NCBI RefSeq assembly: GCF_040807025.1
Contig: NC_090942.1
Location: 205,800,640 to 205,864,639 of the forward strand
DNA from: Struthio camelus
Lineage: Eukaryota > Chordata > Aves > Struthioniformes > Struthionidae
DNA: 64,000 bases
Reading direction: 5' to 3'
In this document: one piece after another, positions 22,801 to 63,843 of the stretch
How positions within the stretch are numbered: position 1 is the stretch's first letter
Layout: the number at the start of each line of letters is the position of its first letter
Program-made: the position numbers and the translations under genes
The notes under the pieces: model-generated
The model's input: only the letters and a program-made list of their open reading frames with translations
What the model was told of the DNA's origin: nothing
The model's database searches: none

Positions 22801-25800
22801 CCATGGTTTGAGCACTAGCATCCACGTGATGCTACTGTCTGTTCTCAGCTCAGCTGTGCTGTTTGTCTGTTGTGCTCCATACTGATTCTTAGGAGGATCT
22901 GCCTCATTGCGGTCGCTGTGGAGACCCTGTGGAGAATTATGTGGTGGAAAAGGTGCCTAGGTATTCCTATGCCAATGCCAGATAGCACTGAGAAAATGTT
23001 GAAAATTAGGAAGAAAAAGGAACTGTTGCACTTGTCAGCTGATGTGGGTTGATGGAGGACTTCTGACTGCAGTGAAGCACAGTAACTTGCACCAGACTGA
23101 TTAGATGTGTGTGTAAATGGTGCAGTGGGGCTCAAAGAAGTTGGGCTTTGCTGCCTGCAGCCCTGGCTGGTGGCAGTGCAGGGGCCCCTTCCTGGGGCAG
23201 CTTCCACCAGCGGGCAGAGCGCCCTGATGTGCAGCAGTGGCTGCAAGGATGCCAGAGCCATGAGGCACTCTGGTGTATGCTGCTCTGGCTGCCTGGGGCT
23301 AGGCCATGAGTCTCTCTTCTGCCTGCTCTGGGAAGCAGATTTCAAGCATCAACGTGGGCAGCTTGAGGGATTGCAGCCCACCTTGGGAAGAGGGACTACT
23401 CTCCTTACCTGGGTGGATGTATGAAGTTTCACCCAAACCAGCAGGAGATAAATTTTGGTCCTGAGCGTTCACTCTTCACACTACTAGGGACAGGTCAGGT
23501 CTCAAGACTCAAGGGAGTGATCCAAGAAGGGCACAGAAGTAATAGTGCACTACAAAGGGGAGGAGCAGGGTAGCTGGTACCTCTTCAACACAGGTCTGTG
23601 ACACAGCTGTTCCCATTAGGGTTCTGAACCTATTGCTCAGGGTCTGCGCATGCAGCTGGTGCTAGTTCTGCGTTTGAAGAGCGCTTGGCACAAAGGGCTT
23701 CTTGGCTACGTGCCCAAGCGCTACAAATCACAACAGCAGAAGAATGCAGCGTTCTTTCCTTCATAGTCATCCTTTGCCACAGGATTAGGACTTTACACTT
23801 CTTCTAGTGCTTCATTAATCCCAGGAGGTGACATCCTATTAAACGTCCTTATCACGTTCCCGAAGTTTATTTTGCAAATATTTCATGGACAGTAAATTGA
23901 ACAGCTGTTCCCTTGAGACACTGTTAATAGCTTAGACCCACTCTGCTGGGATTCCCATTTTTCCACTCCAGTTCTGTGACTGTCTTAACTCTGCCCATCT
24001 TCTGAATTATCGATGAGCAGAAGGTGCTGCTTTCTCTCAAGTACAATTTTATACCTTGTTTTGTATCTCAGTCCTCAGGTGCACGAATAAAGGTCTCCTA
24101 CTACATGGAGGAGATTTAGGGTGCTGGGCAGAGAATAGGAATACTCCAGAAACAGGTGGCAATATATCCCGTGTGGTACAGTTCTTTTCTTGTCAACTTT
24201 AGACACAGTGGGGGAGCTCAGTGTTTACCTCTGAGGTAGGGAAAGGGGAAGGATATCATGTTCTCACAGAACAAGAGCTCTTCTTCCATGGCTGAGCAAA
24301 ACAAAGAGGGAGGGAATGGCTGCCTATGGGGATGTTTACCTCTGTTCTCCCTGCTTCTTGGACATGGTCCCTGAGCGCTGTTGACCTCTTTGCAAGTACT
24401 TTGGGCCAAACATCACTTTCTTAGACACTGTGACTTGCTGGTCACCAGCTTCCCTGAACCTGAATAAACCACTGCTTATTTCTTTGCAACCAGGCTTAGT
24501 GCATTTTCTCTGTCAGGTCACTGTCAGGACAAGACCTTTTTCTTCTAAGTCAAATGCCTTAGGAGAGAGTAGGCAGGTGAAGGCATGTCGATTCATGCTG
24601 CTGGGGGGACCAAGCAGGCTAGTTTGCTCAGAGTATCCCTCACACCCTGTTCCCTCCGCCCCCACTCTTCTCCATTGCTCCTTGGCTGACATTTCTCTTG
24701 TACCTCCCCTTCTCGCAGGCAGGTCATACCCAAGCCATGTGCTGGCAAACCTCGGGAAATAATTGGCACAGAACCAATTTCTTATTACAAGGAGAACAGC
24801 ACGTAGGAAATGGCATGACCTAGCAAGGTTCATGAGTCCTTATTCCCAGGTAATCATTAAACAAGCACCAACCCCTGCTAGCGCATCAGGGGTTATAAAA
24901 CTGAACTTTAGCTCAAGATAATGAAGCGATATGCCCCTAATTTTTTCTGGGATAACAAGTTTCTTGTCTGACACAGCACAGGTTGCTGCTTCTATCCAAG
25001 AGAATAGTGGGCCCCACAGGAACTATGCAGAAGATCAAAGCATGCTTCACCAACAGCACCTTCTGGATTAAAAGATGCTTTTGCTAGCCAAGACTGGCAC
25101 AGGTCAATGTCATGTCATCCAGCATTACCGGTTTACTAGGTGTAAGGTGGTTACTAGGTCCTATGGGCAAAGTACTACTTTGGTTAGTAGGATCAGGAGT
25201 GTGTCAACCTGCTTGCATGACTATCAGGGAAGAGTTATGATGGAGAAGGAATTCATGCTTGCTGCCAGTACAGCCAGAGCCGATATCAGGAAAGTGTCTC
25301 CTCTGACTCACGGTGGAAGGTGCCAGGTAAAACTTCTTCCAGTTAATGAAGAACTAGAAGAGACTTCAGAGAGGGGGCAGATGCCAGACAGATGCATTCA
25401 GCCACTGTTTGCAACACAGCTCTTGCAAGCAGAGCATCTTATAACCATGCATGCATTCATCTCTCCCAGGCGGTATAGGTTAATTGCCTTCCTGATAACT
25501 GCTGTCACTAGGTGTTCACTACCAGGTTCCCAAGGTCCAAGTAGTTTAAAGTGAAATGATGGAAATAAATAATGGTCATCTTCAAAGGACCATGCTTCCA
25601 TCTTCCAACACTCGATGGCTCATTCATTTTTTCTATAGGTTCATCACAGAGCTCCAGGACCTTCCCTCTCCCATTCTGAAACTACTGCTCCACTAGTGAG
25701 CTCCCTACATGAGCGGCCTGACCTGCCACCAGTCCTGTGACTGGTCTCCTCAGTCACACCTGAGGAGATCTGTGCACACCCTACCACAGTAAAAGGACAC

Positions 25801-26329
25801 AACAACCCTCCATCCTCCTTTAACTTGGTTTGTGAGCATACATGTGAGCAGTGTGGCCAATTTTATCTAGAGTATCTGTTCCACCAATTGGAAGCGCGAT
25901 GCCCTGTACAGGGAACCAGCATATACCAACTGCTGGTGGGAATGGACCTCTGTCAGCACCCCTGCCATGCACAGGTCATGCTGCTGCCAGCCTCGGTCTG
26001 CACATAGCACCTTGGACATGGAGATATCATTTTGGAACGTGCCCTGACAAAGTCACACAGTTCTTTCCGGGTGTAGGTAATATGCTGAAAGGCTGAGCTT
26101 GGAAATCCAAAGCTACTCTTAAGGAAGGCAGCTGCAACCACTGACGCAGCGTGATAAGGCTAGCACCTCACAGACTACTGAAGGGTGGAGAGAAGGCCCC
26201 AGGGGGCTGGGGACCTGGCCCCAGCTGCCACAGACACTGAATCTGCGCACTGGTGATTCAGCTGTGCACTGCAGCAGATTTGGTCTTAGTGGTTGTTGCC
26301 TAATGAAGCCCTTGGAGGGTAAAAACAAA
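16843..26329. other. Non-coding DNA, no gene supported
   Basis: No gene is supported. GC-richer patches near 20,430-20,600 and 23,140-23,330 give open frames on both strands, including a 166-codon frame on the - strand at 22,845-23,345. The translations are low in hydrophobic pattern and match no family I recognise. A 159-codon + strand frame at 25,075-25,554 is the cleanest ORF here, but it has no recognisable domain, no codon-level support and no identifiable neighbours. Confidence 0.55.
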
Positions 26330-26358
26330 CAATTTCCTATTTCAGAAATAGGAAATTG
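26330..26358. repeat. Near-perfect inverted repeat, 14-bp arms, 1-base centre
   Basis: Left arm CAATTTCCTATTTC (26,330-26,343) and right arm GAAATAGGAAATTG (26,345-26,358) are exact reverse complements around a single A at 26,344. Pairing ends at the outer bases. The AT-rich arms could extrude as a cruciform or bind a dimeric factor. No transposon ends or coding sequence adjoin it. Confidence 0.9.
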
Positions 26359-29300
26359 CTCACTTGCTGTTATCTGTCTGCTGTTACATACCCTCAGGTA
26401 ATGAAGCCCCCATCTGCTCATACTGAGATGTATTAATTGATTTTGTAAGAAGAAAATAGTGGATTTAATTGTTTATCAGTGATGTACAAAGTATGGTTAC
26501 TGCGATGAGAAGAGGGCAAGGAATATTTATCAAAAGAGAAAGCTTAACCTTATGGCTCTTGCTATCTAGTGTTAAAAGACTTTGCTCCCTTCCTATATGT
26601 TACCGGCCAGTAGTCCTGTTAAAAATTATTGTTTATTTTTAACACTCATCTAGCAAAGAGTTCAGCCTAGTAAAACAGATCAGGAGGGCAACCTCTAAAT
26701 TGCTAATTATAACTTATGTGGATTTTGACCAGGTAGAAGGAAAAAAAACCATGGCAGGGGCCCAGACTAAGCATTCTGGTTTGGGCTGTTCCATGATTTG
26801 GCAGTTCAAAACTCTTTTTTTCTGGGGTTAGATCCTGACAGTCCCTAAAGCTCACCTGCATTAGCGATAGTTTGAAGCAGGAGTCATGGCCCTGGAGAGT
26901 GAGTAATTTACTGGATTGTATAGAATATCTATGTCTGAATTCTTTTCTTTTATTCTATAATAGTAGTAGTGTGCACAAAGAAAGAAGGAATAACAGTTTA
27001 GTTTCAATAGTTACATACAAAACTCCAACTTGCGTTGTTTTAAGCCAAGTTTCTTGTCAAAGTTGTTTCCAGTCACTCAGACTTAATGACTGATTTGATT
27101 AGAAAGTCACTGGAGACCTCCTGACTCTCTTTGAATATTTATACGTACTTCAAAGATGGAAGGGTGAATCACTGCTGAATGGAGATCTGTTCCTGCCTTC
27201 CCTTCCCGTCAAATCACTCCAGCCCATATTAGCTTTCTTTGTCCTAAAAAACATGAATGAGTGCCACCATATATTTAGGGCTCAGTCCCGCCCCAGTTAA
27301 AAGCTGTAATAAGATTCCTAGGTATTCAATGAGAGAAGGCTGAGACCCTTTATGGGCCAAGCAAACCTAACTAGAAGGAAAGTTGATTAGAAGATGGCTA
27401 CTTAAGTTAAGGTCATATTCGCTATTGTTCTTCATATTTTCTCCACTTAATCAACCACTTATTTGGGTTGCTATGGTTACTTGTTACTGTTATGTAAAGA
27501 GAAATCCAATTCAGCCTGTCACTGGGATGCTGGATATGAGCAATGTAAAAGATAAATACCACAAATGCCACATTAATCATGTCAAAGCTCCTCTGATGTC
27601 CTCAAAATTATAAAGACAATACTGTTTATTATTGAGGGGTGCCTCTCAACTTGGTTTTGGTTCACAGAATAATTTATTTTAAGATGAGGATGCTGACTAC
27701 TCCCATTGGAACGACACTAATACACACCAGCCTTGTATTTGGCTCAATAAATAAAACAGAAATTTAACTATCAGCATGTCTCTGCTGAAGTTCTTTATGA
27801 GCGTGGTGAGCCCGCAGGGACATAGTTCAGGCACCATTTAGTGACGCCCTGACCTATTCATTACTTCCATTTACGTTTGTAGAGAATGCCTGAGTCTTGC
27901 AGAAGCATCAGGCCTTCCTGCCCTATTAGGTTCCCCCCAGCCCCAGCATGTTCTGCATAACTGGGGGTTTTGCCTATGGTACCCAGAAACTCAAACTACT
28001 GTAAAAAATTGCTAAATCATACTTCACACTCATGTTATGAAGCATTTATAGAGATAAACTTCCTTTTTGTTTAAATTCTACCGTATTCCTGGTTCTGATA
28101 CTGATATTCAGCCCGGTGTGGTTCCCTTTCTACCAGTCATGGGCTGGGCGCAGCACTTCTGCCCCCACATGCTGTTTGCAGACCACCGTGTGGCCTTGTG
28201 GTGGTCCCTAGCTAGTAATAGTCTGCTCCTTACCCAGCTCTGAGCTTTCAGTTGCAGAAACAGGACAAGCACTTGTTATATGGTCTTTTCTTTTTTCTTA
28301 TATTATTATTTTTTCCCCAGACGGGTTCCAAGCTGTGGTTTCCAGCAAGCTGATTCTGTTACGTGCTGCTCTGACTGTCCCTAAAGCAAGGCACTGCTTC
28401 CTTCCCACGGTCTCAGGGTTAGAGCCTATGTCTTCTATAGAGTGCATGTTGGACTGTGTAAACTGCCCACTGCTGGCTAGATACTTTCTGATGGTCTTCT
28501 AGCTGAGGGGAGATGTCCCACTACGGAACTGTTTGCTTGTCTGTTTGTTTTTAATTTACGCTGCCTGCACCATTCTGCCAGAGTTCTTGCTTTATGTGTG
28601 CGAAGTGCTGGGAATGGAAGCTAAATTTAGGAAACTAAAACTAATGCTAACAGGCAGAGCATCCCCTAGACCTTGTTATTTATTTGGCTGCCCAAAGAGA
28701 TTTGAGGACCCGATTTGGCCAGGGTTTAGCCAGAATTTCAGACTTTCTGCTTTCTTTGGCTCAGGTGGGGGATCTCAGAGGATGCAAGTTTCCCAAGGAA
28801 GTACAGAGAGAGTGGCCAGACCCTCAGTCCTTTTCGGACAGTGTACGCACAGCCCTGTTCCACTGCAGCACTTTGTCTTCAGCTGTCCCTGTCCTCCAGG
28901 ACCCTCCATCTCTCTGCCAAAGCATGCCCCGTCTGGGTCTTTCTAGCGAGCTGTGCCACTGGGAATGGCTATCATGTCTCTGCTGCCACCACAGCTTTGT
29001 GGGGAGGACATGGGCAGGTGAATGAACTGAAGAGAGATAATGCTGCAAATAAAGTCTCTTGAAATGCATCACTGACTCCATGGCATCTGTGTTTGTTCAA
29101 ATACAAAGTAGCTTTTCTCACAGTGGAGGAAGGAGTCCTACCTTGCATACATTGCACTGCATCTGGGGGTACAGGTATGCCCACAGACAGTTACTGCAGA
29201 GTAGCATATAACCACATGGACAGTGTAGACTGAATGTACCAGAGTATATTGGCCCAGCAGCTGGTGGCTATCTAGTAACCCAAGATAAACCTTCCAAGCA

Positions 29301-32300
29301 GCGAGCATTTACAGGCTGCCTTATAAATGACTCTGGAGATTTAAGAACTCACATGACAGCTGTATGAGTTAGAGCTGAAAGCTTTTCACATGGCAGTAGT
29401 GCTGCTATGTTTGTTCATGGAGATAAAAATTGTATTTCTACATGGTGCCAGGATATAGTTTATTAAAGACTCACCTCTTTTCATGTAAAAGAACTAAGTC
29501 TGCTCTCAGGCTACAGGCACACAGGTGCCTCATGCAAGGTAAAGATAGGGGAGAAGCTGCTGGACACCAGTGGCTTCTCATGTCCAAACGCCTACTCAGA
29601 AATAAGTTAATGGTAACTCATCACTTTTTCACAGAAGTAACCACCCCTTTATTTGTTTATACAGCCCGTTACTCGGATGCAGCCATCAGGCTGTAAGCTG
29701 GCAGCCTCCCTTGTTTCAGGTTGCTTTGCGTCCTCTCCTGTTGCGGGACGGCTGGAACTGTTGCTGGAAACTGTTGACACACTGATAGCTGCAATGGCAT
29801 TGAGCAGTCTTCAGGTAAGAGCACTGAACAGTTTCACATGAAGCATTTCTTTAATGCTATGCAATAAGCAGACATCAGTCGTAGGGAAGACCAATTTACT
29901 TTCTCAGCATATCAAGCACAGCAAACTCAAACTTGTTTTGAGGAAGCACCCTGGTGTAGAGGTCTAATACAAAGCCCACTGAAAAGAAAGGACAGACTTT
30001 TGTCTCGAAGAGCTTTTGTTGAAGACAAATTCTAAAAAGATGACGGCTACCAGACCACTAGCATATGTGTTAAACCTCAGACTGTGTCAGGGATAGGAAG
30101 GGCTGACATTAAGGGTGTCCTTGCAGTCTCACCTTCCGCTAGCAACACTATAAATCCCCCACTCCAAACACTAGAAGTTGTCCCACTGGGAAGACCTACT
30201 GGATCTCCAGCCTGACACTGTCCTTGCCTGCTTCGCAAGCTTTCTCTCTGCCAGGCACACGAAACTCACCCAGGCATTGATGTCTGAAGACAGACAGCTA
30301 CACTTCCCAGCCTCAGCCTCTGACCCTGCTATACCAGTGTGCCCTCTCCACCACCTGCAAGCGGAGTTCAGTTCAGGAAACAAGAATGCATTTCAAACTT
30401 CAATGCCTTTTCCTTCCACCTCAGCTTTACTCTCAGTCCTGCTTACATATTTCTCTGTTAGATTGCAGAGTTGAAATTCCAGTTTTTTTGTTCAACAAAC
30501 GCCGACTAGATTTTTTTCCCCTTGTTCCATTAGCACCTTGTATTTGTGGGTGGAAGTCTGCTGGTTTAAGCACAAAGTCCAGGGATGGCATCCATTGCTA
30601 TAAGGAACTGACATAGCAAAGGCCGTAACTGCTCTGCCTCTGAAGAGGTGGCCATCACAGGGGCCCACAGTCTCAGGTAATTATCATGCACCTGACTGCC
30701 CTGGCTGTCTAAACTGCAGCTCTTGCCAAAAGTGCATTTTAAGCTCTCACAGTGTGGAAGAGTGTGGCCACAATAATCTACATCTCTGTGACCTTGACCC
30801 TGATTGCTGCAATTAGCTTTACATAAGGTTAAGCTCAAAAGCCTCTCCATGGCTTCAGCCAGTACTGTCTGGACAAGGGAGCGCAGCGAGAGCGTATCAC
30901 AGAGTGTAGCCCTGAATCCTCTATTAGCCTGTAGTTATCTTCCAGGAGAAATCCACTAAATTCAAGGTCTGATGTTTAGCATCATGGGGATAAGTTGCCT
31001 TTCAATGCCTTTCTTTAAAGTGCGATGAAAGGCAAACGCTGTGTCCTAGACTTCAGCTCTATTCAGAACAAGCTAGAGCATATTCAAGCTGAAATATAAA
31101 ATATAGCCATTTTGACTAAGCTTTCTACAGCATTTCTACATTATTTCTCCTAATTACATTCAATCCCCTAAATGCTATTCACTGGCTTGATTTTTTTGAG
31201 GTGACTGGGTCACTGCTGTTGCAGCTGAATCGATGTTTTCTTCAGTCTTGACCTGACATTTAAATTAGATTGAAGATAGTCAGCAATAAAAGACTAAAAC
31301 TGAGGTCTCTGTCTGCTCTATCCCTCTTGCCCTACCTCTCATATGCAGTGCCTTAGAAACAATTTTAAGGTGTCCTCTTTCCCCATAGTGTTAAAGGTTG
31401 CATGTAATCTTTTCTGGGTCAGGAATACTTAACCGATGTGACTGAATTAACATGCTAGTTTGTAGTCTGGCTTATAATACTGCAGCTTTTGTCCAGCTGG
31501 AAATGGTGGATAGAAATAATGGAGGACTATTTTCTGTCTCTGGGCTTGCTGTGAAAAGAAATCTAAAACCCAAAAAGCTAAACATAAAAACAATAAAATA
31601 ATCATAATAAAAATATAATAAAATAGTCTAAAAATAAATGAAATTGACAGAGAACAAGGGTCAAAAAATCTTGCAACAATTATGAATGTTTATGTGATGT
31701 GGCTATTGTACTTCTCTGAAACATTTTACAATATTATCCTGGACTTCTCTGGTCAGATTCCTTCTCACCTGACTGCAAAGATATAAAAGAGAAATACCTT
31801 CTAGAGAACTGCGAATGTCTACTTTAGGTCAAATTAAACTGCTTGTTGGTGGAGTGTTTCTCTCCATTAACTATGATGTTTGAAGTTGGAGATTAATCCC
31901 ACACCTCAGACACCAAAAAGTAGTGATGATCGCCTGCCTCCCACCTGTTTCCTATTGTGTTCCCATGAGGACTTGCCTCACTAACATTAGTGAGTGAGAA
32001 GCAGAGCTAAACGTGAATGAAAGATTGTAAGAGAGAGCACTGTGGTCATTAAAATTTGAAAGTTTTATTCATTAATATTTTCAGTGATCTCTGGAAGGAG
32101 AGGATCAGTAAGCAGCAAACATCAACAGTATGGGGCAAGATGTTCTACTTTCGATGTCCACACCCAAAATGTAGATCCTTAATATCCTCATTCTACTGGC
32201 ATCTCAACCTGGAGATACTCAGCACTGAAGTTCCCAATCAGCTCTACCTTGTGCCTGTGCTGCTATGCCATCCTTTGCCCATCTGGCCTGCGGGACTCCC

Positions 32301-35300
32301 TTTGCTGAGGACAGAACTGAGTACAGATCTTCACCTCCCTTGTGTGGCTATTGCTGCCGACCTGCTGAGTAAATGGAGGTATAGTTTGCTGTTGTTTGAA
32401 GAAACAATGGCTGTGATTTCTGAAGATTTCTTCAAAGCAGTTGGTTTTTGAGAGCCTAAGATCCGTGGAGATGTAACTAACTGGTAACTCCTTTTGTGAC
32501 TGGGTAGTCTGATTATCTAATGAGTTCTCCTTTGCTTCTGTTGGTCTGATGCCCTTGCCCACTTTGGGATCTGTTTTATACTTCAGTAAGCCCAAAAGGA
32601 GATACTGATGCTAATGTAAATGCCATGCAGACATGATAATATCTGTCAAGCTCTCCTGATCTGCTGTGTTGGCAACTTTATATAGAAACAATACATGACA
32701 TTTCCAGACTGAGATACAGTGCACTGGGCTTTGGAGGATGAAAAGCCCTACTCCTTGCATTGAGGAAGGAAATCAACAGAGCACTTAGCTTTTAAAATAA
32801 AAGTTTAAAAGACTTAACACAAAGAGTTACACCTACCACCTACATCTAATTAGACTGAGCTGTCTCTCTGCAGCTTCAAGAAAGGTACCAGCTTCCCAAA
32901 CAGCGGTAACATTTAAGACTTCTTCTACCTGCAGTATTTTCTGTTGGCTAACTTAAACAGCTGCCTCCTCAGTCCATGGCTGGTATGGATCCCATTCCTG
33001 AGTAACTCAGGTAGGTTAATCTGCCTAAGTATGCTTCATCTGCCGTTTAACCAGGTCCATCCCTCTTAGGCACGCCAAACTCCCTTCACAGTTGATCAGT
33101 ACAATCCATAGAGTTTAGTTCATCTAAAACGGGTAGATGACATGCATGTTCCAAGTGCCTGATCTTCCTTCATGAACTCTTTCAAGGGAGCCTGTGCTGA
33201 CTCTTGCTGAGGGTGGCTTTACGCTGTAGGCTGTGTAGCTACCCATGGAGATGTGGGTCTCATACCTTCCCGTGCACTGTGATGGGAGCCTGCTGTCAGT
33301 GTTGTAAGTTTGGTTAGGAGCCTAAAAACGAGATGATGCGATGTTCAGGCTCCTTCACACGTCTCCTCCCAGTAGCTTTTCCCTGAGTGGTGGTTTCAGT
33401 TTGCTACTGTAAATCGGCAGATAAAAGATCTGTGGCCTATCTGCTGAGCAGTCTTAACCAATAGGTGTTTTCTTTTCTCATACTAAGACGTCATAGTAAC
33501 ATATGAAATACATACTGTGATTGCAAGTACAGTACATTGCAGCAAAGTTGGTTGTTTCCTATAGAATAAGATATCAGTGTTTTAAGTGGGTCTTCTGAAA
33601 ATGTATTCATCATTACACTAGAGAGTAGGGGTGAACCAATTATTAATTAATTTAAAAAAAATTACTGCACTTAGTAAGAATGGTAATAACGAGAGCAAGA
33701 GTGGACACAATCTACTCTGATTATGTAAAAAAGGCTTTGAAAGACTGTGTGCTACTTGATTAGTAGGCTAAGAAGAACTTGAGTAGTCACAGCAACTTTA
33801 AATATAGACTAGAGCCTTAAGTTTGAGTATGTGAGGCACGAAGAGGGAGCTTTGGCATAGGGCATGTGAAAACTGAGAACATCCAGATCTATTAGAAAAA
33901 GAAATAAAAATTGAAGTCCCAACAAGAAAAATATTGAGCACAGTATCTAAGCCTCTGGGCTAGCATTTAAAGTAAAACTGTTCAGTTCATCCTCCTCTTT
34001 CTCTTCTTTCTGCTTTCCTAACCAATATTAAATCACTTGGTTAAATAAACCATCATTTTAAAGATTCTGTCTTTATGGTATTTGGTCTCTCTGTTCGTAA
34101 ACAGCCCAGGTACAGTTTGTTGAAACGGTCCAGAAGTTGCAGTCTCTGGCAATTGCAGCCTCCTGTCTATGGAAGTTAAATGTTCCAAACATGGATTGGA
34201 TTTCCAGGTAAAATCTAGGCACTTTCCACAGCTCAAATATCTTTACTGGTAGCCCCTGTTTAATGTAATGTCTTTTTTTCCAAGACTTTATGTACATATA
34301 TGGGAACATCTTGTCAGGTAGCATCACAAGTACATGTAACATAGTAGTCTGCCTCTTCTAAAGTTACTGTGAACTAGCTCTGTCAATCAGAAAGTGTTTC
34401 TAAGCTAGCTGGGTCTCAGTTCTAGCAAATGAGCTGCCTTCAGATTACTAGGTTGAGGGAAATTAAGTTCTCTGCTATATAGAATATTTGAATTTGCTAT
34501 TTCATTTTTTCAATGCTAAAAATATGCAGGGTATTGTGTAGAGAAGTCCAGCTATGGACAAGTCCGGTGGTGCAGAACTGTTCATAATACAAGCTATTAC
34601 AGCTGCAGGAATAGACCTTTCCATTTAATTTGAAGGAACAGCCTGTTAGTAGGAGCAGTGAAGGAGCCATAAGACCAGCCTTATCTGTAGTCCCAACCCA
34701 CTTGTTTCAATAGGTTGAATCCTAGAAGCTGGAGAATATGCAGGGAAGGAGAGCAGGGAAGGATCATATATATATTTGCTCTGTTTCTACATGCTTTCTC
34801 CAGGTTTCCCTACCAGCCAGGGTGAGATGACTGGGTGAGACGAACCTTTCATCTGGTCCATTTATAATCCTACATACCCTTCTGTGATCTCCTGTAATAT
34901 CCTCCGTTCAAATAACCATAGAAGGGTCTGAGCCTGTAGAGACAGAGGAAGGATAAGCAGAAGTTAGTGTATTTATTATATGTGTGGGTTAATGACATTT
35001 ATAGTGCTCTTTCAGGAGTACTTTGAAGAAGAGAAGTTTTCTAGCTGTTGTGGGTGAGGTCCAAGAAGGTGAAAGTGTGCTGCTCCTGCACAGGAAGGGC
35101 TCGCTGCCAATGTGGAAGCACAAACACCTGCCTGGTGGCCAGAGCTGAGGGGTTCCAGCTAAAGAAAGACATTTCTGTTTGTCTGTCAGTCTGATTTCTT
35201 TTTTTTTTTTTTTTTTGAGTTTTCTGTTGGCAGAAAGTAAAATAAACCCCAAGATCTCCAAGCCTCATAGCCCAAGGGAAACATGTGGGCACTGATGTGT

Positions 35301-37190
35301 AACATTTAATAATTAGGATCAACGGCACCCAAATATTTTACCTTTATCCTGGTGGCTAGTCATGTGATTCAGGGTGAAATGAAATAGCCATTGCCTGAAA
35401 ATTCAAGAGATTTCTGCTTCAGAGCATGTGACACGGAAGAGCATAGGGCAGGTTCATGTCAGATACTCACCCAGCTTCCCTCAGGATGAGGGGGAGTGTT
35501 TTGTATCTGGGTTTCCCAAACCCTCAGTAAATGTTGTAACCACTGGGATATCCACTAAAAGGGAACACGAGGTCGGCCAATGTTCTCCGTATGAGAACGA
35601 GCTGCGGTGCCTCGGCCTGGCAAGGTGTGCATGGCTGCAGGACCCTGCAACTTGCTTAGGCATCTAACTCCCTGGATGAGGTGGCGGTCAAGCCTTTGCT
35701 CTTTCCTCTGTATTTTTCAGTAGAGAACTCCTAGTCAGCTTGTTAGCTTTTGTGAACCTGCTGCTTGGGCATCTAAGAGTGCAGTTGCAAGGCAGTTAAG
35801 CCAATGAAAGTGAAGATTTCTGGTCCTCCTCCTACCTCTAGTGATTATGTGAGAAGGCTATTTATGGAGATCATTCAGCAAAACCCAGGCAACCCTTCCC
35901 TCCACCCCCTTGGTAACCCACGCAGCTATTTGTTTTGTTTTGTTTTTCATTGGGTTGGTTTTCAGCCAGCCAGGATCCCTCACCAGGGGCATGGCACAGT
36001 TACGGGGGTCTCTGTGCTGGTGCAAAGGGAAGGCCGAAATTGGGGACCTCATGGAGGCTTGGATATTGTGAAGCTACACTGTGTCACAGCATGCCCGAAT
36101 GTGAATATACGAAAGGCATCAGAATGAGTAAATAGTTTGCATGCTATATATCATGGCGGGGTTTGGGGGTGAGAATAAGGACCAGTTCTGTGGAGAGCTT
36201 TATGCACTTAAACCTCATCAGGATCCTCACGCTTATGCACTGTGCTCCAGAAGTGACTTCTCTGACTTCAGTGGAAATATAGAAGTTATTCCTTTGAAGC
36301 GAAGGCTACGAGCCCCCATCTGAGGGGATGACCCTGCGAGCGGTGCTTCTGCAGCACAGGGCTGGCAGTATATGGTCCTGGTTCAATCTAGCCTGCTCTG
36401 CTCATGTCCTCTTTCAGATGTATTTGTTCAAAGGAAAGCAAGCAGCAAATTCCTTTTGTCTGAGCGTATAATGAGTTTTAGCAGTGTCTTGGGCAAAGAT
36501 AAGATTATGTGGGGATTATGGCAGTTTGGGCCTCAGAGTAGTGTGCTTTCTGGGAAGAAACGCTTCAGGGTGGCAGAAGTAATTTCTCTGCTCAGGCGTT
36601 TGGAGCATTGATACCAGAGACATTGAAAATCAATGAAGGAAGAGAGTGGAGGTAGGTAAGTGTCTCTTTAATGCAATGGACTATGATTTCCAAAATCCCT
36701 AGCCCCAGACCTTTCCATCTCGCAAATGTTCCTGTATTGCATTAGTCTGTATATAAATGCAAAAAATAGCTTACTCCTGTTCATTTTCTTTTAAAAGTAT
36801 ACGAACATGAGAGGCTGCGGAGACTGCAATAAGTATGTAGGACAGCAACAGCTGTGCTGTTCTTACAAAGCTAACTCTGCAGTCAGGGCTCCAGCCGCAC
36901 GAACCGGTCTTCAGGGACCTTGAAATCTGCACACACATGCTGCTTCTCTCTTCTTCCCTTTTCTTTTGTTTTTTCTTTCCTTTTATTTTCTTTTTGTCGC
37001 ATTAGGGAAATGAAATTAGGGCATGAAGACACCAACTTGCCAAAATAAATTAACTTTAAAATCCCGTTGACTCCCAAGGGTCTGCCCTTAGTACAGCACA
37101 CCATAAGAAGTAATAAAATTACAGTAAGTAAATGATCCCTTAGACTCCCATGCATAAACAACCTTAGCTGAATCCTGCAGCCCAGATTAG
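26359..37190. other. Non-coding DNA upstream of SLN
   Basis: No exon was supported. The segment contains a T18 tract at 35,199-35,216, which on the - strand reads as a poly(A)-like run but has no retrocopy or poly(A) signal next to it. A CAGCTG E-box lies near 36,850. Because SLN is transcribed rightward from about 37 kb, this stretch may hold its muscle enhancers, but none can be demonstrated from sequence alone. Confidence 0.5.
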
Positions 37191-37395
37191 CCCTTTTAAA
37201 ATATTTGGGGTGTGATGTCAGCATCTCGGATGCCAATACATTTGTTCCTCTCCTCCCTCAGACTACTTTAGTTCCCACATAGCGACAAGGCATCCAAACT
37301 GAGCGGGACAGAGCAAGAAGCTGAGAAGGAAATAATATCTGCATTGCCCCAAAGTCCTGGAGGCAGAACCACTGTGCTCCATTTAACTTCTTAAG
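37191..37395 (+). promoter_or_regulatory. SLN: Speculative SLN promoter and noncoding first exon
   Basis: SLN genes have a noncoding first exon followed by an exon carrying the whole CDS, so one should lie upstream of 38,582. The best candidate I see is a TATA-like TTTTAAAATA near 37,193 followed by a purine-rich stretch that ends in a donor-like AAG|GTAAAA with the junction after 37,395. That would give an intron of about 1.2 kb. Start, end and even existence are unproven, and other donors in the preceding kilobases are equally possible. Confidence 0.2.
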
Positions 37396-38687
37396 GTAAA
37401 AAACTTGTTTTACTTATTAAGTCAGATTTTCTCTTGCTCATGGAGATAGGAGTCTGACAAAACAGCATGGGAATGCAGGAATTTTCTTAAGTGTAGGTAC
37501 CAGCCTTTTAATATTTAATCTGCAGACTAAAGCCGTTTCTATTTAAACCCTCTGTCTTCAATCTAGTACAGTCCCAAGGCTTCTCGATGTTATAGACTAA
37601 TCCGGCTTCTCCTTTAAGATTTAGTTTGTGTGGCTGAAATTTTTTGTTTGCCTAGAGCTTATTCTTCATTTGTTTAAAGGTTTTTGTTTTATTTACACCA
37701 CGTTCAGATAGCATTAGAGCTATGTTATGCATGATAAAGTATTCTCTGCATGAATTCCAAGAACATACAAAAATCTAAACTTGTGACAAAGTAAATAAAT
37801 AATAACAATAGCCAACAGAAAACTTTTTGAATTTAACTTGAATGGGATTTCTGAAGTGAGGAAACTAGGGCAGCTTGAAAGTATAAGGAAGTCAGAAGGT
37901 GTTTGGGAAAAGTCTATCTATCTCATCTGTAGGATTAACTCACAGAATTTATGAAGCTTTTCAGAAATGAAAACGTTGCACCTTAGGTTCTCCCTGTACT
38001 TTTAGCAGGAACATGAATTCACTATTTTCTCTGCTAAGCTTTACAAGGGAGGCTGAAATTTGAATTCTTTTAAGCTGTAGTATTTCAGTACAAAATTTTA
38101 TAAATACTAATCCTTTAAGAAAAAGCGGAAAAGTGAGTGAGATAAAAATTGTAGAAATCACTACTTCTTTGTAAGAAAACAGTTTTCACCTACTTTATTT
38201 AGAAAATGAGACTACACAAACGAATATGAGAATATTAGGAACTCTGAACCGCAATATATTTGTGATGTATATCAGTTCAAAGTAATAAATGAGGTTTGGG
38301 CGGTCTTTATTTTAAAAAGCTTGTGCAAAGCAGAGCTAATTTCCAAGGACTGCTCACCTTGTGAGATGTATTTTGGGGTGATACTGAGAAGGCTTCTTGT
38401 CAGGGGGTGGAAATCAAAGAAGGTGATAAGCTGCTGGAGATAGCTTTTGCTTTTAGTGTCCGTAGTGCCTACTAAGTTTTATCCACAGAAAAAGCATTTA
38501 TTTATACCTGTATAAATGGCTCTGTTGAACTTCTCTCCTTCACTTATCTGTTCTTCACATATTTTTCTTTTTCCTTAAAAGAGCCTGTGAGCTGAAGGCT
38601 GATCTCAAGGACGCTCCCAGATAAGCCACTGAAGTTTTCCCTTTGCTTTACCTGTTGACCTCTGCTCTCCTCTGATTATTCCCCCAA

Positions 38688-38783
38688 ATGGAGCGATCTA
38701 CACAAGAACTCTTCCTGAACTTCATGATTGTCCTGATTACTGTACTGCTCATGTGGCTCCTCGTGAAGTCTTATCAGGAGTAA
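38688..38783 (+). CDS. SLN: Sarcolipin, SERCA-regulating micropeptide
   Basis: This complete 31-residue reading frame (ATG to TAA) lies within one exon. Sarcolipin is a single-pass sarcoplasmic-reticulum membrane peptide that binds SERCA Ca2+-ATPases in muscle, lowers apparent Ca2+ affinity and uncouples ATP hydrolysis from transport, so contributing to heat production. The sequence shows a short polar N-terminus with Thr5 (the known phosphorylation position), then the hallmark ELFLNF (residues 7-12), a hydrophobic helix at about 8-26 with Trp23, and a C-terminal luminal tail KSYQE. Against the human peptide as I remember it, changes are at 2, 3, 4, 6, 13, 20, 27 and 31; the last replaces Tyr31 with Glu. 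The start is fixed by length, by family identity and by an in-frame stop 13 bases upstream. The ATG context has C at -3 and G at +4. Phospholamban and myoregulin are related SERCA peptides but fit length and sequence much less well. ELMOD1 nearby supports orthology. Confidence 0.96.
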
Positions 38784-39227
38784 AAGACAATCAGAAACTC
38801 TTGGAGTTGATTTAAGTACGTGTCTCTGCAGACATGAGTAACATCCTCAGCACACCTCTGTGATTAGTTTTCAATCAATTGAGGATGTCATGAATTTTTT
38901 TACTCTTGCATTTCTGTTGCCTGTGCTAACGTTTATAAAGGGTCTGTGATGGTGTAATTATTTTATTCTGCAGTGATCCAGCTGTAAAATGTAAAATGCA
39001 AGATCCTTAGACACTGTTACGTGTGGCTGCCTCCTCCAGCAGTTTCTGGGATTGTTGTAACCCCTTTGTCCGGAACACCCGCTTATTGGGCATCGGTGTT
39101 AGATTTTCTAGTGTATAAAACTGCAATATGCAATGTATTTGTCTTTATTAACCAGCATAAAAGGCACAGACTTGCTAAGCAGAAGGAAATGTGAAGCCTT
39201 TACTTTCTCTTGCTTTTGTTTCACTTA

Positions 39228-39233
39228 AATAAA
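39228..39233 (+). terminator. SLN: SLN poly(A) signal
   Basis: A canonical AATAAA lies 445 bases past the SLN stop codon, with a TG/GT-bearing stretch 20-40 bases beyond. It is the first canonical AATAAA in the 3' UTR and ends a transcript of expected size. Confidence 0.75.
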
Positions 39234-39250
39234 GAAGAACATGTGAAACC

Positions 39251-42174
39251 CTGCTTCGTAGTGTTCCTTATCCCTCTTTTGATCCCATCACTGCTCTCTA
39301 AAAGCCCTGGCGATAACTGCAGTAGAGCGGGTCATGCAAGTCTGGCCTTTTTATTTGTACCTGGATTTTTATTTGTACTGTAAAAAAAAATTGCTACAGA
39401 GTAAGAGTGGAAATCCTGCGGGTTTATTAACGTGTATCCACAGGAACGAGCAGATTCCAGCTGTTCCTGTGACCTTTATGGCCTGAGTTAGTTACACTGC
39501 TAGTGCTATGAATGTCATCGTCACAGAGAACCTCTGTCGCACAACTGGAATTGTCATATAATTGCATTTCTAAAGTTGGATTTTGGACTTGGATTCCCAG
39601 GGTCCTATTTCTGGCAACGCTATGCTTGGAGCAGTGCTGGGCAGAGGTGGCCAGGGGCAGTCACAGGCACTACCGCCCTGCTGAGGTCAGTCAAGGCAGC
39701 GGTCCTGCAGCATCCACGCACAGACTGACCCACAGCAAAGCTGTCCCAGACAGGCCGCCCGCACGGTATGACGAGTTTCCGGGGAGGTGCATGTCCGGGC
39801 TAATGCTGCAGAGCTGTGACCTGCTAACGAAGTCTTCAGCCAATGCAAGGAGCACAACACATTGCAGTCCCTGGGGCTGCGAAATCAGGAATTATGCTCC
39901 TCCTAGGAATTCCTCATGTGTTATTTTCATGGCTTCAGAGGATCAGTATCTTTTATAAAAAGCAGCTTCTTTAAGAAGACAGTTATATGTGTAGCCCCAC
40001 TGTTAATGCAGGTCTCCTTTCCCTCCAGACCTCTGTAAGGAATGCGTGAAATTACAGGGCATTATCCAAATTTGCATGTACGTTACTCAAGGCAGTTCTA
40101 GGTGGGGGCTGTATGTGGGATTGTACCAGCACTGACAGCCTGGACTCAGGACTGTGCCTTAAGGACAGACAGAAAATGTTGCGGTAGCACCATCTGTTGA
40201 ATATCCGTTGCTTAAACGTTGTTGGTAAATGATCCACTGTCCTGTTTCATTTGTATTTCCCCTCCTGGTTTGTAATCACCCCCATTCTCTGCTTCAAATG
40301 CTTTTCTCAAAGGGAAAAGGACAGTTACCACTGACACATTCTCCCAGTCAGGAAAAACTGACTTCAGTGCAACGCTTGATAAAAATTAACTCTTTTTCCC
40401 TTAGCTATGGCTGACCAAACCTCCTTCCAGCATTTCCAAGGAAGACAAATTTTCTCTGAGAAAAGTGAGACCTTGAAATGAATTTTGCCAACAGCCTTCC
40501 TCTGTGATCCACCTTGCACCAGGTGCTGCTGTAATTTCATTAATTTACACCGTCAGTTTGTGTTCATAGGGCTTGACTCAGGTGTGCAGCAGAGACTGGA
40601 GAAGGACATGGAAAAAGCTATTTTTAAATATGGTGAATACTTGATAATTCAGTATGAAAGATTCTCATCTTTCACAAGCTGTGACTCCCTATCCCAGCTG
40701 AACACTGTGTCTTCATCCAGTATTATCAGATCCTCACTGTGGCTTAAAAATAGATTTTTCAGACTCTCAGGTGCGTCACGGCTTTCCCCAGGCACCGCGC
40801 CGCCACACGCCTGCCCTGCCGCTTCCATCACAGAGCAGCTCGCTGCGCCCCTGGCAGGGAGGGGTGAGGCTTTTGTGCCGTCCACAGAGAGTATGGCCCA
40901 TCTCCAGCGAGAACAACGTAACAAGCAAACCAACACATTTGGGCTCACCACAGGCTGGCAATGAAAAGAGGAGAGGTGTGGGCTGTACTGTCTAAAACAG
41001 CAGTGGTGTGAACAGTCACAGTTCAAGGTGATCCTAGCAATTTTTGGGTACAAAGATAAACTGTCATTGAGAGTCTGGGGCATCCAAGACTATGAACCAC
41101 CTCGCTCTTTGAGAATAGGCGCATGCCTAACTTTAGCACAATGTAATTAAGGTTGAGCATCCCAACAAGTTGTTGTAAATGGGACTACCAGTCTAAGTCA
41201 TCTCTTCTCAGGTATTCACAATTTTTAGCAGATTTTGAATGAGAAAAGTTAGGCTGATCCAGAACTGAGGTGCTTTTCTCTTTCTTTTAGGTCAAACCAT
41301 GTAATTTGCGTAAGACTGAAAAAAAGGCAATTCAGTTGTCAGCATTAATGCCAGATGCCCTGACGGGACAGCACTGTGCTGGTAGACAGGCACACTGGCA
41401 TCAAAGAGCACCAGCCAAATACATGGAGGCAGGCCACTTGCCCCAGTCTCAGGGTCCCAGATGTAGGTGCTTGGTGTGACCCTTGAGTCTCAGCTCTTTC
41501 TGTCATTTTCCTGCTTGTCAAAGAGGCCCCGGAGGAGAGGTGGCTCTCTGTGACCTGAGGACTGGTATTTCCAGCTTGTGCCAGCCCTTTGCAGAGAGTT
41601 GCAGATGGAGCACCAGAGGACTTCTATGCTAACACTGATTTGTCTTTAGTTTATCGGTAGAATTATCTTAGGCAAAAATTTTACTAAAATTATACTTAAG
41701 AGTAAGTAGCTGCATTAGCACCTCCCGCAGCCCCATGGGCTGCAGAGCTGGTTGCTCAGGCACTGCAGCCTGTCTGAGCTGGAGCACCCTGCAGATTTCC
41801 AGGCACTTCATCTCACCAGCTCCTGCTGCCTAAGGCTGCCTATCGGAGCCATCCAGGGCAACTGCTGTAGCAGATCTGCTCCTTCTCTAGCCAAAGATCT
41901 TTTCTTTCTTCTGACTTTTCTGACTGATCTGCTGGTCTTTCCAGAGGACTGGGTACCACGGCATCACAGGTTATCTGGAGGATAAGGTTTTTCTTTCTCA
42001 CCTTAAAGTCTCTTAGTTAAAATGTTGTCAATATTTTAATTAACCCATACATCTTTTAAGCTGCAGACTTCTTTCCCATGTTTATGGCCCTTATCACTTT
42101 TTGAATGACGCACTACAGGAAATATTTATTAGGCAAGCTTTCTTTTATGTATATGCAAGCTTTTTTGTTCTATG

Positions 42175-48200: not shown

Positions 48201-49119
48201 AACTGAGGAGATATGCTTAAGAATTATTGCTGCTTGGTTCACCTATTGGCATGGTGCTGTGGGGACTGGCAGCTCCTGGAGGCCAGTACTGCTGTCGGCT
48301 CCTGGTGGCAGTAGGGCCAGGTCTCACCTCCAGGGCCTGTCTCACTGCCCGCAATGGAGCAGGTCCCCAGGAGCAGCTGGAAATGTCCCAGCCCTGGCAC
48401 TGGCCACTGCTGCAGGAATGGGGATGGGCCTAGGCTGGGCAGGACAGGAACCCATGGGTCAGGGTTGGAAAGGCGGTTGGGAGGCCTGTGACTGGGCAAG
48501 GGTAGGCCTGTGGTGGGGCTGGAGCCTGCACAGCTTTGGCATCATGGGGTAGGGACTGACAGCCCCAGGCTAGGCTGAGATTTTTAAGAATGAGTCGACC
48601 AAACATCCATCAGAAATAGCTTTAACAGAACTGTCCTACCTTGGAGAGGGTTATCATCAGCTGCTACCACAGCAAGTAGCAGGGACTACCCTTCTTATGG
48701 ATGCTTAAGAGGCCACACCCCTCAGCTGGCTCACTGAAGAGGGGATATTTTGCAATGCATAAAAGTGGTAAAAGAAAGCTGCTGTGCTGTGTTTACATGA
48801 GGTAACAGCGAGTATGTGAACAGGCTGATCGGCACTTTTCTTAATAGTTTTTATTGAGTATTTATGAGACTGAGAACAGCGTTTTCCAAAATGGAAAAGG
48901 GGAACAACCTCAGCATGATTGCCATTCTCTGATTTCCACCAGAAACCCAACTGTAATTAACCTAATTTGATAAGCAAAGCTTTCTTGGAGACGGTGAAGA
49001 AGTGTCCCCACTTTTACTGTTCCAACAGTCAACTGCCAGCAAGGGGCTAAAATCCATGGTAGTTCCCAGAGCAGGAGAGAGCTATCAGATATTGTTAACT
49101 TTTTCCTTACAGGCCCAGT
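48201..49119. other. Short GC-rich patch and spacer
   Basis: The bases at about 48,227-48,560 are GC-rich and repetitive in flavour (many CTGG, GGGCTGG and CAGG words), with open frames on both strands and no recognised protein. The rest, to the CpG island, is ordinary non-coding sequence. Confidence 0.5.
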
Positions 49120-49180
49120 GGACCCGGCCGGACTGAGCGCTGTGTGTCCCAGCACACAGGTGGGTCGCTCGGGATTGCTG

Positions 49181-49210
49181 CCCGGCCCGGCCCGGCCCGG
49201 CCCGGCCCGG
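49181..49210. repeat. (CCCGG)6 tandem repeat
   Basis: Six perfect CCCGG units. The - strand carries successive GGG runs separated by CC, which fits a G-quadruplex or a GC hairpin. Confidence 0.97.
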
Positions 49211-49234
49211 CTGTGCCCACGCTGCCGGCTTCGC

Positions 49235-49298
49235 CGGGCGCTGTCCGCGGTGCTGAAGCGGTCGGGTCTGTCGGGCGCTGTCCGCGGTGCTGAAGCGG
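49235..49298. repeat. 27-bp direct repeat, two copies 37 bp apart
   Basis: The identical 27-base sequence (beginning CGGGCGCTGTCCGCGG and ending TGAAGCGG) is present at 49,235-49,261 and 49,272-49,298, separated by a 10-base spacer. Being identical, it is a recent local duplication or under constraint. Confidence 0.97.
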
Positions 49299-49375
49299 CA
49301 GCGCGGCAACACCAACCGCCCGCGGCCCGCCTGCCGCGCGGTCTGCAGCCGCGCCGGGCGGAGAGAGGTGCAGAG

Positions 49376-52300
49376 GCGTTTGCAGGCCTTGGCACAGAAG
49401 GGATGGGGCCGTACACGAACCCTTTATATTCTAGCCCAACGGACACAATGAATATGATGCTGTTCTTAAAAATATCGGCCCTTGTGCCTTTCAGGTTGGC
49501 TTTTTCATTTTTCTCCCTTAAAAATTCAAATTCAACATGCAGTCAGACACCAAAGTTGAAGACTAGGCTGGGAGGGCTTTGCAAGAAGAAAAGCTTTGAA
49601 GAGTGAGTGAGACCTCGGACTGAGCAGGTGAGAATGCATGTAAAAGAAATAGGTGGATGCAGGAAAAATGTGAGAAGACAAAGTCCAAAGGTGGCACTGG
49701 CATCATGGTTAACTCATTGTTTTTAGAAACTGAGGAATGTGCCAGGCAGAAAATAGAGAAAGCTACTATCTCTTTGCTTGGAGGAGCTGACTGTCCACAT
49801 TTAGATGCTGCTTAATGGAGAGATTTAAAGTGTTGCAGAGGGATAGTATAATAGCTTTAAACAAGACAAGGCATTGTCTTCTAAGTTTTCTGTCTGTGCT
49901 GAATAATGTAAACTTCAGCTATATCAGAGAAGAGACACTTACAGTACGCAAGAGTCAAGATAGTGAGGATCTATCCAAGAGTTTTACTCATCAACTATAA
50001 AACAAGATGTTTGGCTCTCAGAGAAAATCCCAGTTGTTTTTGGAGAAGACTTTCTCATGGCTGAAGCAGGGAAGGAGGGAATGGAAATTCAGGTCTCTCC
50101 TAGGTTTGAAGATAGATAAAGCCATGCTTATTTTCTCTCACTCCCCACTCTCCCCAAATGCATTAGGAATTTTTTGTCCATTTATTAGGATTATGTGAAA
50201 TGGAACTCTTTCTGATGTGCAAAGCATTCCTTGTCCTGGCTAAAACATGGCTAATGGGAATCAGTCATACAACAGCAGCATGCTGAGATATATTTATATC
50301 ATGTGGGCTTTTAAACAAAAATTTACTCTCTCTAAAATGCTTATTCTTTTTTCCATTGCAATGTTTGCTACAGGTAATTTAATAAAAAGAAAATCAATTT
50401 ACTACAACTGCTTTGGTTTCATAAGCAGAGAGCTGAGGTATACTGGAATTATCCTTGGCCAGATACAAGACAGTCATAGAAGTCCCCCTATCAGATTCCA
50501 GTATTCAGGAAATGCATCACCCCATCATTTCCAGTTGCCAGTGCGTATTTCAGACACCTCTTTTTTTAAAGAGAGGTACATGTTCTTATATAAATTTCTT
50601 GTGTGTGCTTATTTTCCTCTCCAAAGTGTAGGCATTTGATATTAGCGTTATAGCATTGATTACATTTTCTGTAGCATCACAGATGACCTAGCCCAAATGG
50701 CATAGGCTGCACTGCTTCTCACAATCCTTTGTCCCAAAGGTAATTCTCTCTCTCGGGGGAGGAGAATCTCTAGCTCTCTTTATTACTTGCAGTTCAGGCA
50801 GCTCCAAGATTGTTTAAACTACTGCAGGTTTTCATATGCACTGCACAACCTCTGTGTAGTTTTTAGATCTCTATGGAATTATAAATGCCTTGGTGCTCTA
50901 GCAGCACTGATATTTCTACATGACACCAGACTTACTGACTGGCTTAGTCTAGCTCTTAGCACAAGGACATTCATACACTGGTCAAGGGAGACTGTGGAGC
51001 CCACTCAGTAGGTACACAAGGCTCCCTCAGACCCGCTTTTTCATCCATAAAATGAAAGGAGAGCACCGTGCTGGGATTATAGGTCCTTACTGGAGCTCCA
51101 ATGTTCTTTGCTGTTGCTGCATTCATCTCTTCTGGCCAGATGCGGAGCTAGTGTGAATTTGCACAGCTTCATAGCAGCCATGTGTGATTTACAGTAATTG
51201 AGGGCTATCTCAGGCATGGACAAGAAAAAGAAAAGAAGAGGAGCAACAACTGAAAAGAAATGATCCTCTATTAATTAGGCAAAAGGAGCCAATTCTCACT
51301 TGGGACAGCCTGCTGGGAGTGCGAAAGTGCTTTAGGGGCAGAACTGCATGCAGCAAGCAGAGCAGCTGAGCTGGAGAAGCTGTGTTCCCAGTGTGGCCAT
51401 GTGCTCTTACCCCTTCCTCCTTAGGCCTCCTGACAGGGGCAAGACAGGAGGTGGCAGCTGCCTTGCGGGGGCCAAGCTAAGAGCCATCCTTCAAGATGGG
51501 CCATTGCAGGATGCGGGGAGAGGGTTTGCCAGGTCAGCTCGTGCCTGCTCAGCCCTCTGCTCCTGTGGTCCTTTTTTCCACTCCTTTTGGGCCACAGAGC
51601 TAGTGAGAGCTGACACCCACATCCTCTGCAAAATGTCTCTCTGCCAAGTGTGTGAGATAAACGATGACAGGAGGAGGAGCTGAAGGGGCAGTGAGGACTG
51701 AAATACAGAAACCCAAAGCAAAGCGTGCTCCAGTTGGCTTAAATTAAAACAAATAGAGCCAATGCAAGTGGAAAAACTGGGAGAAAGTGAAGAGGCAGAT
51801 CATGGCTTAGTTGCATCTGTTTAAAGGAATATGTGAGGCTATCCAAGAGCAAATCAGCATCACAGCTATCCCCAGCAAAGACAGGCAGCAAACTAAATCT
51901 TCATGGATGTTGCAGCCTTCTGCATTCTGCCCCTTGGCATTCCCCGCAGCCTGCACATCAAGCAGAGGCTGCTTCACTCTGGTGAGCAGGCTGGTTTCAC
52001 AGCTTAGATCAAGCTCAAAGGCCTGTGTCAGGAGATGCAGAGCACATACCATTCCTATTGATTTGGATTGGTATCAAAAAGCCTGAGTCATTCGCAGGAA
52101 TGAAATTTCAACTCAGCAAAGCTCACACTTGGCTTTGGGCCAGAAGAGAGGGCTCATCCTCTGGTAAGTGCTTGCTTATTTAACCAGTCTTGCCAAAAGG
52201 ATGCCTTGGTTTGACAAGTGCAGGTGACAAAAGTTAAAGGGCTGAGCTGATTTACTGCTTTTGAGGATTTTGCTACTGTTTTTTCTGTGTGCTCACTGCT

Positions 52301-58457: not shown

Positions 58458-58630
58458 CTACATATTGATTAAGCTTTCCGATGCAGCAAAATGAGGGCAC
58501 AGAGCCATCTCTGGGTTCTGGAGCTGTTTCAAGACTCGCTTGTGAAATTTCTCTCTGACACGATTGAACTCCATTATGTCCAGTGGGTCCTCTTCAATCC
58601 AGAATTTGTGGAATTCATGCATTAAGTAGC
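58458..58630 (-). CDS. ELMOD1: ELMOD1, last coding exon
   Basis: Encodes the C-terminal 56 residues plus the second and third bases of a split Cys codon, ending at TAG (58,458-58,460). The exon follows an acceptor with polypyrimidine tract and AG at 58,632-58,631. Recognisable family blocks are HEFHKFWIEEDP, DIMEFNRVREKF, the basic KRVLKQLQNP and the terminal ALCPHFAAS. ELMOD1 is a non-opsin sigma-1 receptor-associated GTPase-activating protein for ARL2 and other ARF-family GTPases, important in inner-ear hair cells. This exon carries the end of the ELMO domain and the C-terminal tail, not the catalytic arginine region. ELMOD2 is a paralogue; the FHKFWIEEDP tail and the adjacency to SLN favour ELMOD1. 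The frame joins the 62,189 exon without shift. Confidence 0.93.
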
Positions 58631-61600: not shown

Positions 61601-62188
61601 ACTGGGGCTGTGAGGGGACTTCCCCATCAAACCCTCTGTGTGCTGCACGCTTTGTGCTGCACCTCCGCCACGGTGCAGCTCCTGCTGCAGTGCTGTTCTG
61701 GCAAGGACGCACAGCAGGTCTGCGCTTCAAGGGGATGCTCAAATACAGTTAGAGGGGCTAGAAAAGCATTACTCCTGAGGGGGAGGAATCTACTGAAAGA
61801 CGCAGGGAAACACATGAATTTATATGTGGGTATCTTAAGAGGCAGATGGCTTTACAGAAAAACAACATTTCAAAGCTCTTTAGTTTCTTATTATTTACCT
61901 TTTCCTATTATTTAAAGCCAATTGAGGCATATAAAAGGTCACTTTAGTTTGGGCCAAACTGTTTTTTTCACCCCTTGGTTTGGTGGTGATATACACCACA
62001 ACTAAAAACTGGGTCCAAGTTTTCTAGAGACCAGATAGCAAAACAAGTGTGATAGCAGCTGTGCTGTGTCAACAGGTTTGCAGGACTTGCCACTACTGTA
62101 AAACAACAATTAAAAAAGCAACGGGTGATGAAAAACTGATAGTAGGAAGACAAGCTAGTTATAGTCCCCACCTCTGCCCCCAACTTAC
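58631..62188 (-). other. ELMOD1: ELMOD1 intron (last)
   Basis: An intron of about 3.56 kb with GT donor at 62,188-62,187 (GTAAGT) and AG acceptor at 58,632-58,631. It contains an A14 tract at 60,383-60,396. Open frames inside it on either strand (up to about 107 codons) have no recognised content. Confidence 0.88.
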
Positions 62189-62322
62189 AGAAGGTCTGTT
62201 GAAAGTGTATTAGTGTTGGTGCCTCTGGGGCGACATTGTAGAAATGGGTCTTCAAAGCTCCGCTCACAAGCAGATTGTATGCCAGGTCTGTTATGTTAAT
62301 GCCCACAATAGCAAAAGAGTAG
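62189..62322 (-). CDS. ELMOD1: ELMOD1, internal ELMO-domain exon
   Basis: This 134-base exon has an AG acceptor (62,324-62,323) after a pyrimidine-rich tract and a GTAAGT donor starting at 62,188. It begins with the last base of a split Gly codon and ends with the first base of a split Cys codon. The translation includes YSFAIVGINITDLAYNLL, then VSGALKTHFYN and APEAPTLIHFQQTF, which are typical of the ELMO domain of ELMOD1. This is a helical, partly hydrophobic part of the domain. The open frame overruns both splice sites, so exon limits come from splice consensus and family continuity. Confidence 0.95.
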
Positions 62323-63843
62323 CTGTAAGAAAAAGAGAGCAGCAACATTTAGAGGTAGTTTGACTTCTTTCAGCATGCTAGAAGAAACTCTGACAACACT
62401 GCAAGTGCAACTGAGGCGCATTAATTCTCTCTTGCTTCTGATGAGCTTCCAAAGAGGGGCTGAGGAAGGGGGTGGAAAACAAGACAGACGTTTTTCCTGT
62501 CTGCTTTGTACACTATAATGGCAACGCTGTGCTAGTGAAGCAAGTGGCCATAGTGAAAACAGGAGTTTCCTCATCACACCAGCCATTTTCAGTGGAGCAG
62601 CACAGATTCATTTCTGTGAAAGACCACCAAGGCTAAAAGTCCCTGAGCTCCTGGACTTGCTTTGAGTCAGGGTTGACACGCCTCATGATGGCTTTGTTTG
62701 CAGCATGGCCAGTTATTTACTGTTTCAACCTGTCTGTCCAACTGTAATTCCTTACCCATCGTTAGGAACATAAGGTTTGGGCAATCAGACCTACAAAGAC
62801 TTTTGCCTATAAGAGACATTTCACATGCTTTTCAGCCATGTGAGAAGAATCAGCTGTGTTGACTCCAGTTTCTTCCCAACAGAAACTAGCTATACAGGCC
62901 AGAAAACAGGTAAAGACCTATTTCTCTCTCCATCATGCTTTGATGGAGCAAAACCCTGTCTTGCTAAGAGGGTGTATTAACTAGAAAAAGTATTTTTTAG
63001 GTACAACAAAATAAAAAATTGGAAGTCACTTCTTAATTTGTGAGCCTGTTGCATAAAGAACTCAATGAGGGAAAAGGGAAAGTACTTTCTGGCAGTGACC
63101 ATTTCAAGGAAACATGCACGTCCCATGCTGACATTTAGAGACAGAAGCAAATACGTTTAGCTATGCAGCAATTTTTAAAAACAGTTGTCATATATAATCT
63201 GGCTTAGGTATTTTCCAGTTATGACTGTTAAGCAAGCTAAAATTTGTATTTTTGATTTTATATTTTTAAACCTTTGACATATTGCAGGAGCAAGAACATT
63301 CAGAAGCTACCAGCAGCAGGCAGCCTATTGGGAAGTTTCACAGAACAATGAAATTTCATTTCATTGAGACCCTGCTATGGACATTAAAATGTTGTATTAC
63401 AGTTTCTCAAACACGCTCGTTACGGAAAATACAGTTCTGTACTCATGAATATAGCTATACCTCACTAGGTATAGCTCCTCACTAGGATTTCTTCCCTATT
63501 TTTATACTTACCTGAAAGCACATCAGAATCTGTTTCTGACAGTCAGAAGTGAGACCTGATCACATTGCATATTAAGAAGAATTAGACATTCATAACTGCA
63601 CTATACATAGCACACAAAAAGCTTCTCCTTGCTGCAAGCTTCTTCCCCTCGCCAATTATTACTTAAAAGTGACATTTTTTCCTGTAATCCTAGCCACACC
63701 TTGATTTACAAAGATAGTATGTGTTAGAGTCCATATACTGAAGTTTCCTTAAAAATGCAGTCAGGAAACTTCCACTCAAATATACAGTGTTATTGACAAC
63801 AGTTTTGTTTGTAGCAGCTTTAAACGTATGACTTTAAACTTAC
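62323..63843 (-). other. ELMOD1: ELMOD1 intron
   Basis: A 1.52-kb intron bounded by a GTAAGT donor (from 63,843) and an AG acceptor (62,324-62,323). A short local duplication of 'cctcactagg' occurs near 63,460-63,487. No embedded gene was seen. Confidence 0.88.

Follow-up and report, generated by a model that had tools for sequence, protein, structure and literature searches.

The stretch of DNA analysed here comprises 64,000 nucleotides of Struthio camelus (the window; C1:205800640-205864639) and carries a short intact frame that we assign to sarcolipin (SLN), together with exons of an ELMOD-type gene (Table 1). The frame opens with an ATG at 38688-38690 and closes with a TAA at 38781-38783 on the plus strand, and contains 31 codons with zero internal stops, confirming the intact 31-codon frame reported in a preliminary description of this DNA. 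That description had also presented the gene as hidden below ORF-length cut-offs. This is true of mechanical ORF lists only and does not by itself make the gene worth reporting, as passages of two earlier publications already describe avian sarcolipin (PMC5684175, PMC6170647). The encoded peptide of 31 residues is laid out as a cytosolic N-terminus (MERSTQE), one membrane helix at approximately residues 8-26 and a luminal tail (KSYQE), with a hydropathy maximum of 2.76 in the 19-residue stretch starting at residue 8. It thus displays the family feature of a chain of ~31 residues with a single membrane helix.

Table 1 Features of the sarcolipin locus, its downstream neighbour and the phospholamban paralogue. 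Positions are those of the window unless a contig is given.
Feature	Position	Strand	Basis or remark
Proposed last exon, coding, with a short piece of 5' UTR, the CDS and the 3' UTR	38582..39250	+	Proposed from acceptor and AATAAA
Upstream in-frame stop TGA	38673..38675	+	First one 5' of the ATG
Sarcolipin coding sequence	38688..38783	+	Open frame, profile and PDB matches, genome search
AATAAA, likely poly(A) signal	39228..39233	+	~445 bases past the stop codon
Last coding exon, with stop, of the downstream ELMOD neighbour	58458..58628	-	ELMOD1-type C-terminal motifs; PF04727, 15.3 bits
Internal ELMOD exon (downstream neighbour)	62184..62321	-	tblastn; PF04727, 20.4 bits
Phospholamban, intact 52-codon frame	C3:65189209-65189364		Pfam scan, 112.5 bits

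The muscle transcript of SLN has an upstream non-coding exon. At the present locus, the best acceptor sets an intron end at 38581 and an exon start at 38582. With a pyrimidine share of 0.84, it ranks first among the 27 AG sites listed for 38300-38687, although this score is crude, a share of 0.8 being reached by 40 of the 4947 AG sites on the plus strand. It is also the sole site of those 27 without an AG in the preceding stretch checked. No ATG lies between this proposed exon start and the sarcolipin start codon, which stands in a moderate context (C at -3, G at +4), and the in-frame TGA upstream means that the frame cannot extend further 5' within the exon. The AATAAA downstream is weak evidence when taken alone, because 64 copies are found on the plus strand of the window (1.0 per kb), and the 3' end of the exon is approximate, being set at the poly(A) signal plus ~17 bases. 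The splice acceptor with its pyrimidine tract, the upstream stop and the poly(A) signal of the preliminary description were hence all recovered, the last with this reservation. A search for exon 1 by donor, TATA, MEF2 and CArG sites pinpointed neither the exon nor a promoter; it returned six donor-like sites at 6/7 consensus positions in 24000-38580, none standing out, as well as scattered TATA-like sites, two places matching MEF2 and zero CArG matches. Judging from the sequence, these features agree with those expected for the coding exon in a spliced mRNA, which would presumably be expressed in muscle.

The family assignment was examined with profile searches and a sequence search of the PDB. 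The peptide matched the Pfam Sarcolipin profile (PF05366) over residues 1-30 of 31 with 72 bits (E 3.1e-20; cut-off 26.4). A phmmer search against all PDB chains yielded 7 distinct sequences at E <= 10, headed by sarcolipin chains that we take to be from rabbit (3w5a/4h1w, E 5.9e-11) and human (1jdm, E 1.5e-10), while the remaining five were phospholamban with E-values of 0.12 to 0.51. Identities counted on the phmmer alignments amounted to 23/30 with 3w5a and 22/27 with 1jdm. Both sarcolipin alignments end at residue 30, and the divergence sits at the last residue, Glu31. The full-length match claimed earlier thus holds for residues 1-30 and gives way at residue 31, where a Glu takes the place of the Tyr in mammalian RSYQY.

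Another small SERCA-binding peptide of the superfamily, e.g. phospholamban, might be considered instead, given a weak match of the peptide to the Phospholamban profile (PF04272; 20.5 bits, E 0.00034, under the cut-off of 25) and a QELF.NF stretch in common with the phospholamban of the same genome. However, the sarcolipin profile is far ahead, the peptide comes without the 26-residue cytosolic domain, and the phospholamban gene sits elsewhere, on contig C3, where a PF04272 search of the genome gave 110.8 bits as compared to 21.3 bits, below the cut-off, at the sarcolipin locus. The separate loci on C1 and C3 indicate that both paralogues are present and distinct. We therefore ruled out phospholamban or another family, judging from the profile scores and the separate phospholamban locus, and regard such an identity as exceedingly improbable. 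A best match to another family, which the preliminary description had named as speaking against its proposal, was not what we found, with sarcolipin leading phospholamban by 72 to 20.5 bits.

To place this assignment to sarcolipin in its genomic context, we searched the whole assembly of 1.45 Gb in 262 contigs. The peptide found one match, its own locus, and PF05366 retained 1 of 41 scored candidates at E <= 1. A chance match is excluded by the E-value of the profile match and by this single hit among the 41 candidates. Sarcolipin identity, as originally proposed, is thereby borne out by the PF05366 score, by the ranking of sarcolipins as best matches in the PDB and by the lone genome match. 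The coding region is confined to one exon, as would be expected of a processed (retrotransposed) copy, and the site search did not find exon 1, so that a retrocopy or decayed copy instead of a working gene deserves consideration. Yet the genome offers no parent for a retrocopy in the form of a second sarcolipin match at E <= 1, the frame is intact, the ATG is preceded at 106 bases by a pyrimidine tract with AG, as at a real intron, and the neighbour is of the ELMOD type, as presumably expected for SLN. Owing to the absence of a second match, we rejected a retrocopy and consider a non-working copy very unlikely.

In human, we take ELMOD1 to adjoin SLN in a convergent arrangement, with SLC35F2 on the other side. 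The ELMOD side of this neighbourhood is represented here by matching exons downstream of the sarcolipin gene on the opposite strand. The internal exon was detected by tblastn with ELMOD-type exons from contig C4 of the same genome (match at about 62324-62184, 55% over 47 residues, E 2e-15), and the last coding exon was located through what we take to be the C-terminal motifs of ELMOD1 and matches PF04727 (ELMO_CED12) with an E-value of 0.022. Both exons score below the PF04727 cut-off of 23.3, as may happen because they are short pieces. A genome search with the same profile gave ten matches, one of them at C1:205868779-205868925 on the minus strand, ~4 kb past the right end of the window; the stops inside this match arise because it overruns the exon edges, the exon itself being open. 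This third ELMOD exon, just outside the window, was also recognized by tblastn with a C4 exon (78% over 45 residues). A mechanical ORF at 61968-62348 on the minus strand corresponds to the internal ELMOD exon of the window read on into its introns. The two ELMOD exons in the window most likely make up the 3' part of an ELMOD1 gene that converges on SLN; the choice of ELMOD1 over another ELMOD gene rests on the C-terminus and the human order. Taken together, our analysis indicates that the locus is an intact orthologue of vertebrate SLN, single-copy in this assembly, to which we assign a probability of about 0.97.

Further scans addressed other features of the window. Rfam gave 0 matches at the gathering threshold over the window and 0 matches at E <= 0.1 over 36000-40000, and ARAGORN detected 0 tRNAs; a non-coding RNA reading found no support in these scans. 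A comparison with bird CR1 repeat tails produced a single, uninformative 9-base match. The sole CpG-island-like stretch met in the window scan lies at 49001-49500, ~10 kb downstream of SLN, and was found as three overlapping 300-base segments with a GC content of up to 0.74 and a CpG observed/expected ratio of 0.80-1.03. It includes a pure GCCCG array at 49180-49211 and, as judged by eye, a ~26-base sequence in two copies. This stretch coincides with no gene start identified in the window and may serve as promoter for a transcript that is not annotated.

With regard to function, the family literature suggests that the peptide would insert as a single helix into the groove that TM2, TM6 and TM9 form in SERCA, would lower the apparent calcium affinity of SERCA and would let the pump hydrolyse ATP without moving calcium. 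The position of SLN in this groove, and the need for its N-terminus in uncoupling, are described in part of a published account (PMC6170647). The present peptide would presumably bind SERCA and may uncouple it. Acylation of sarcolipin at Cys9 is discussed for other species in a section of PMC7711957; position 9 being Phe, it cannot occur in the present peptide.

The luminal tail reads KSYQE and the mammalian RSYQY is absent, which is compatible with membership, RSYQY being typical of mammals and not required of the sarcolipin family. Published passages give KSYQE/Q instead of RSYQY as the C-terminus of avian sarcolipin (PMC5684175, citing Montigny 2014) and likewise mention a KSYQX-type avian tail (PMC6170647). 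The latter text also reports conservation of Glu2 and Glu7 among the sarcolipins of sparrow, chicken and pigeon (PMC6170647); both residues, as well as Thr5, are present in the peptide. Since KSYQE is an already known avian form, the gene holds no surprise as far as avian sarcolipin is concerned. A proposal that we regard as rather doubtful is that SERCA coupling is altered by a tail of the bird type (Lys27, Glu31); the peptide might then uncouple poorly, or it might be an uncoupler with a better fit to avian SERCA. Both readings of the tail appear in the literature (PMC5684175, PMC6170647), the better fit to avian SERCA being the suggestion of one opinion paper. A passage of a review judges SLN-based muscle thermogenesis in birds unlikely because of the tail (PMC5684175), and a thermogenic role in birds is called speculative in part of another article (PMC6011225).

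The locus is thus an ordinary, already known gene, and its earlier identification was correct without amounting to a new discovery. For annotation, its value is to confirm that this genome has SLN in intact form and apparently as a single copy. Wider interest attaches to sarcolipin as a SERCA regulator that may also generate heat in muscle; birds are without UCP1-based heat production, and according to the passages cited above the heat role of sarcolipin in them is disputed and turns on the KSYQE-type tail. The gene provides one more data point, a natural example, for the question of tail and coupling; this question is older than our finding, and sequence alone does not take it further.

In comparison to known systems, the peptide shares with the solved sarcolipins (3w5a/4h1w, 1jdm) the length of 31 residues, the same helix and the residues Thr5, Glu7, Trp23 and Tyr29, while it differs from 3w5a in having Q6, F9 (Cys9 in 3w5a), M13, I14, L20, M22 and K27. 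Avian sarcolipin as published, compared by description, is matched in its KSYQE tail, Glu2 and Glu7, and no difference was found. Phospholamban (PLN) has a related membrane helix and, in this genome, the QELF.NF stretch in common with the peptide, but comprises 52 residues as opposed to the 31 of the sarcolipin peptide.
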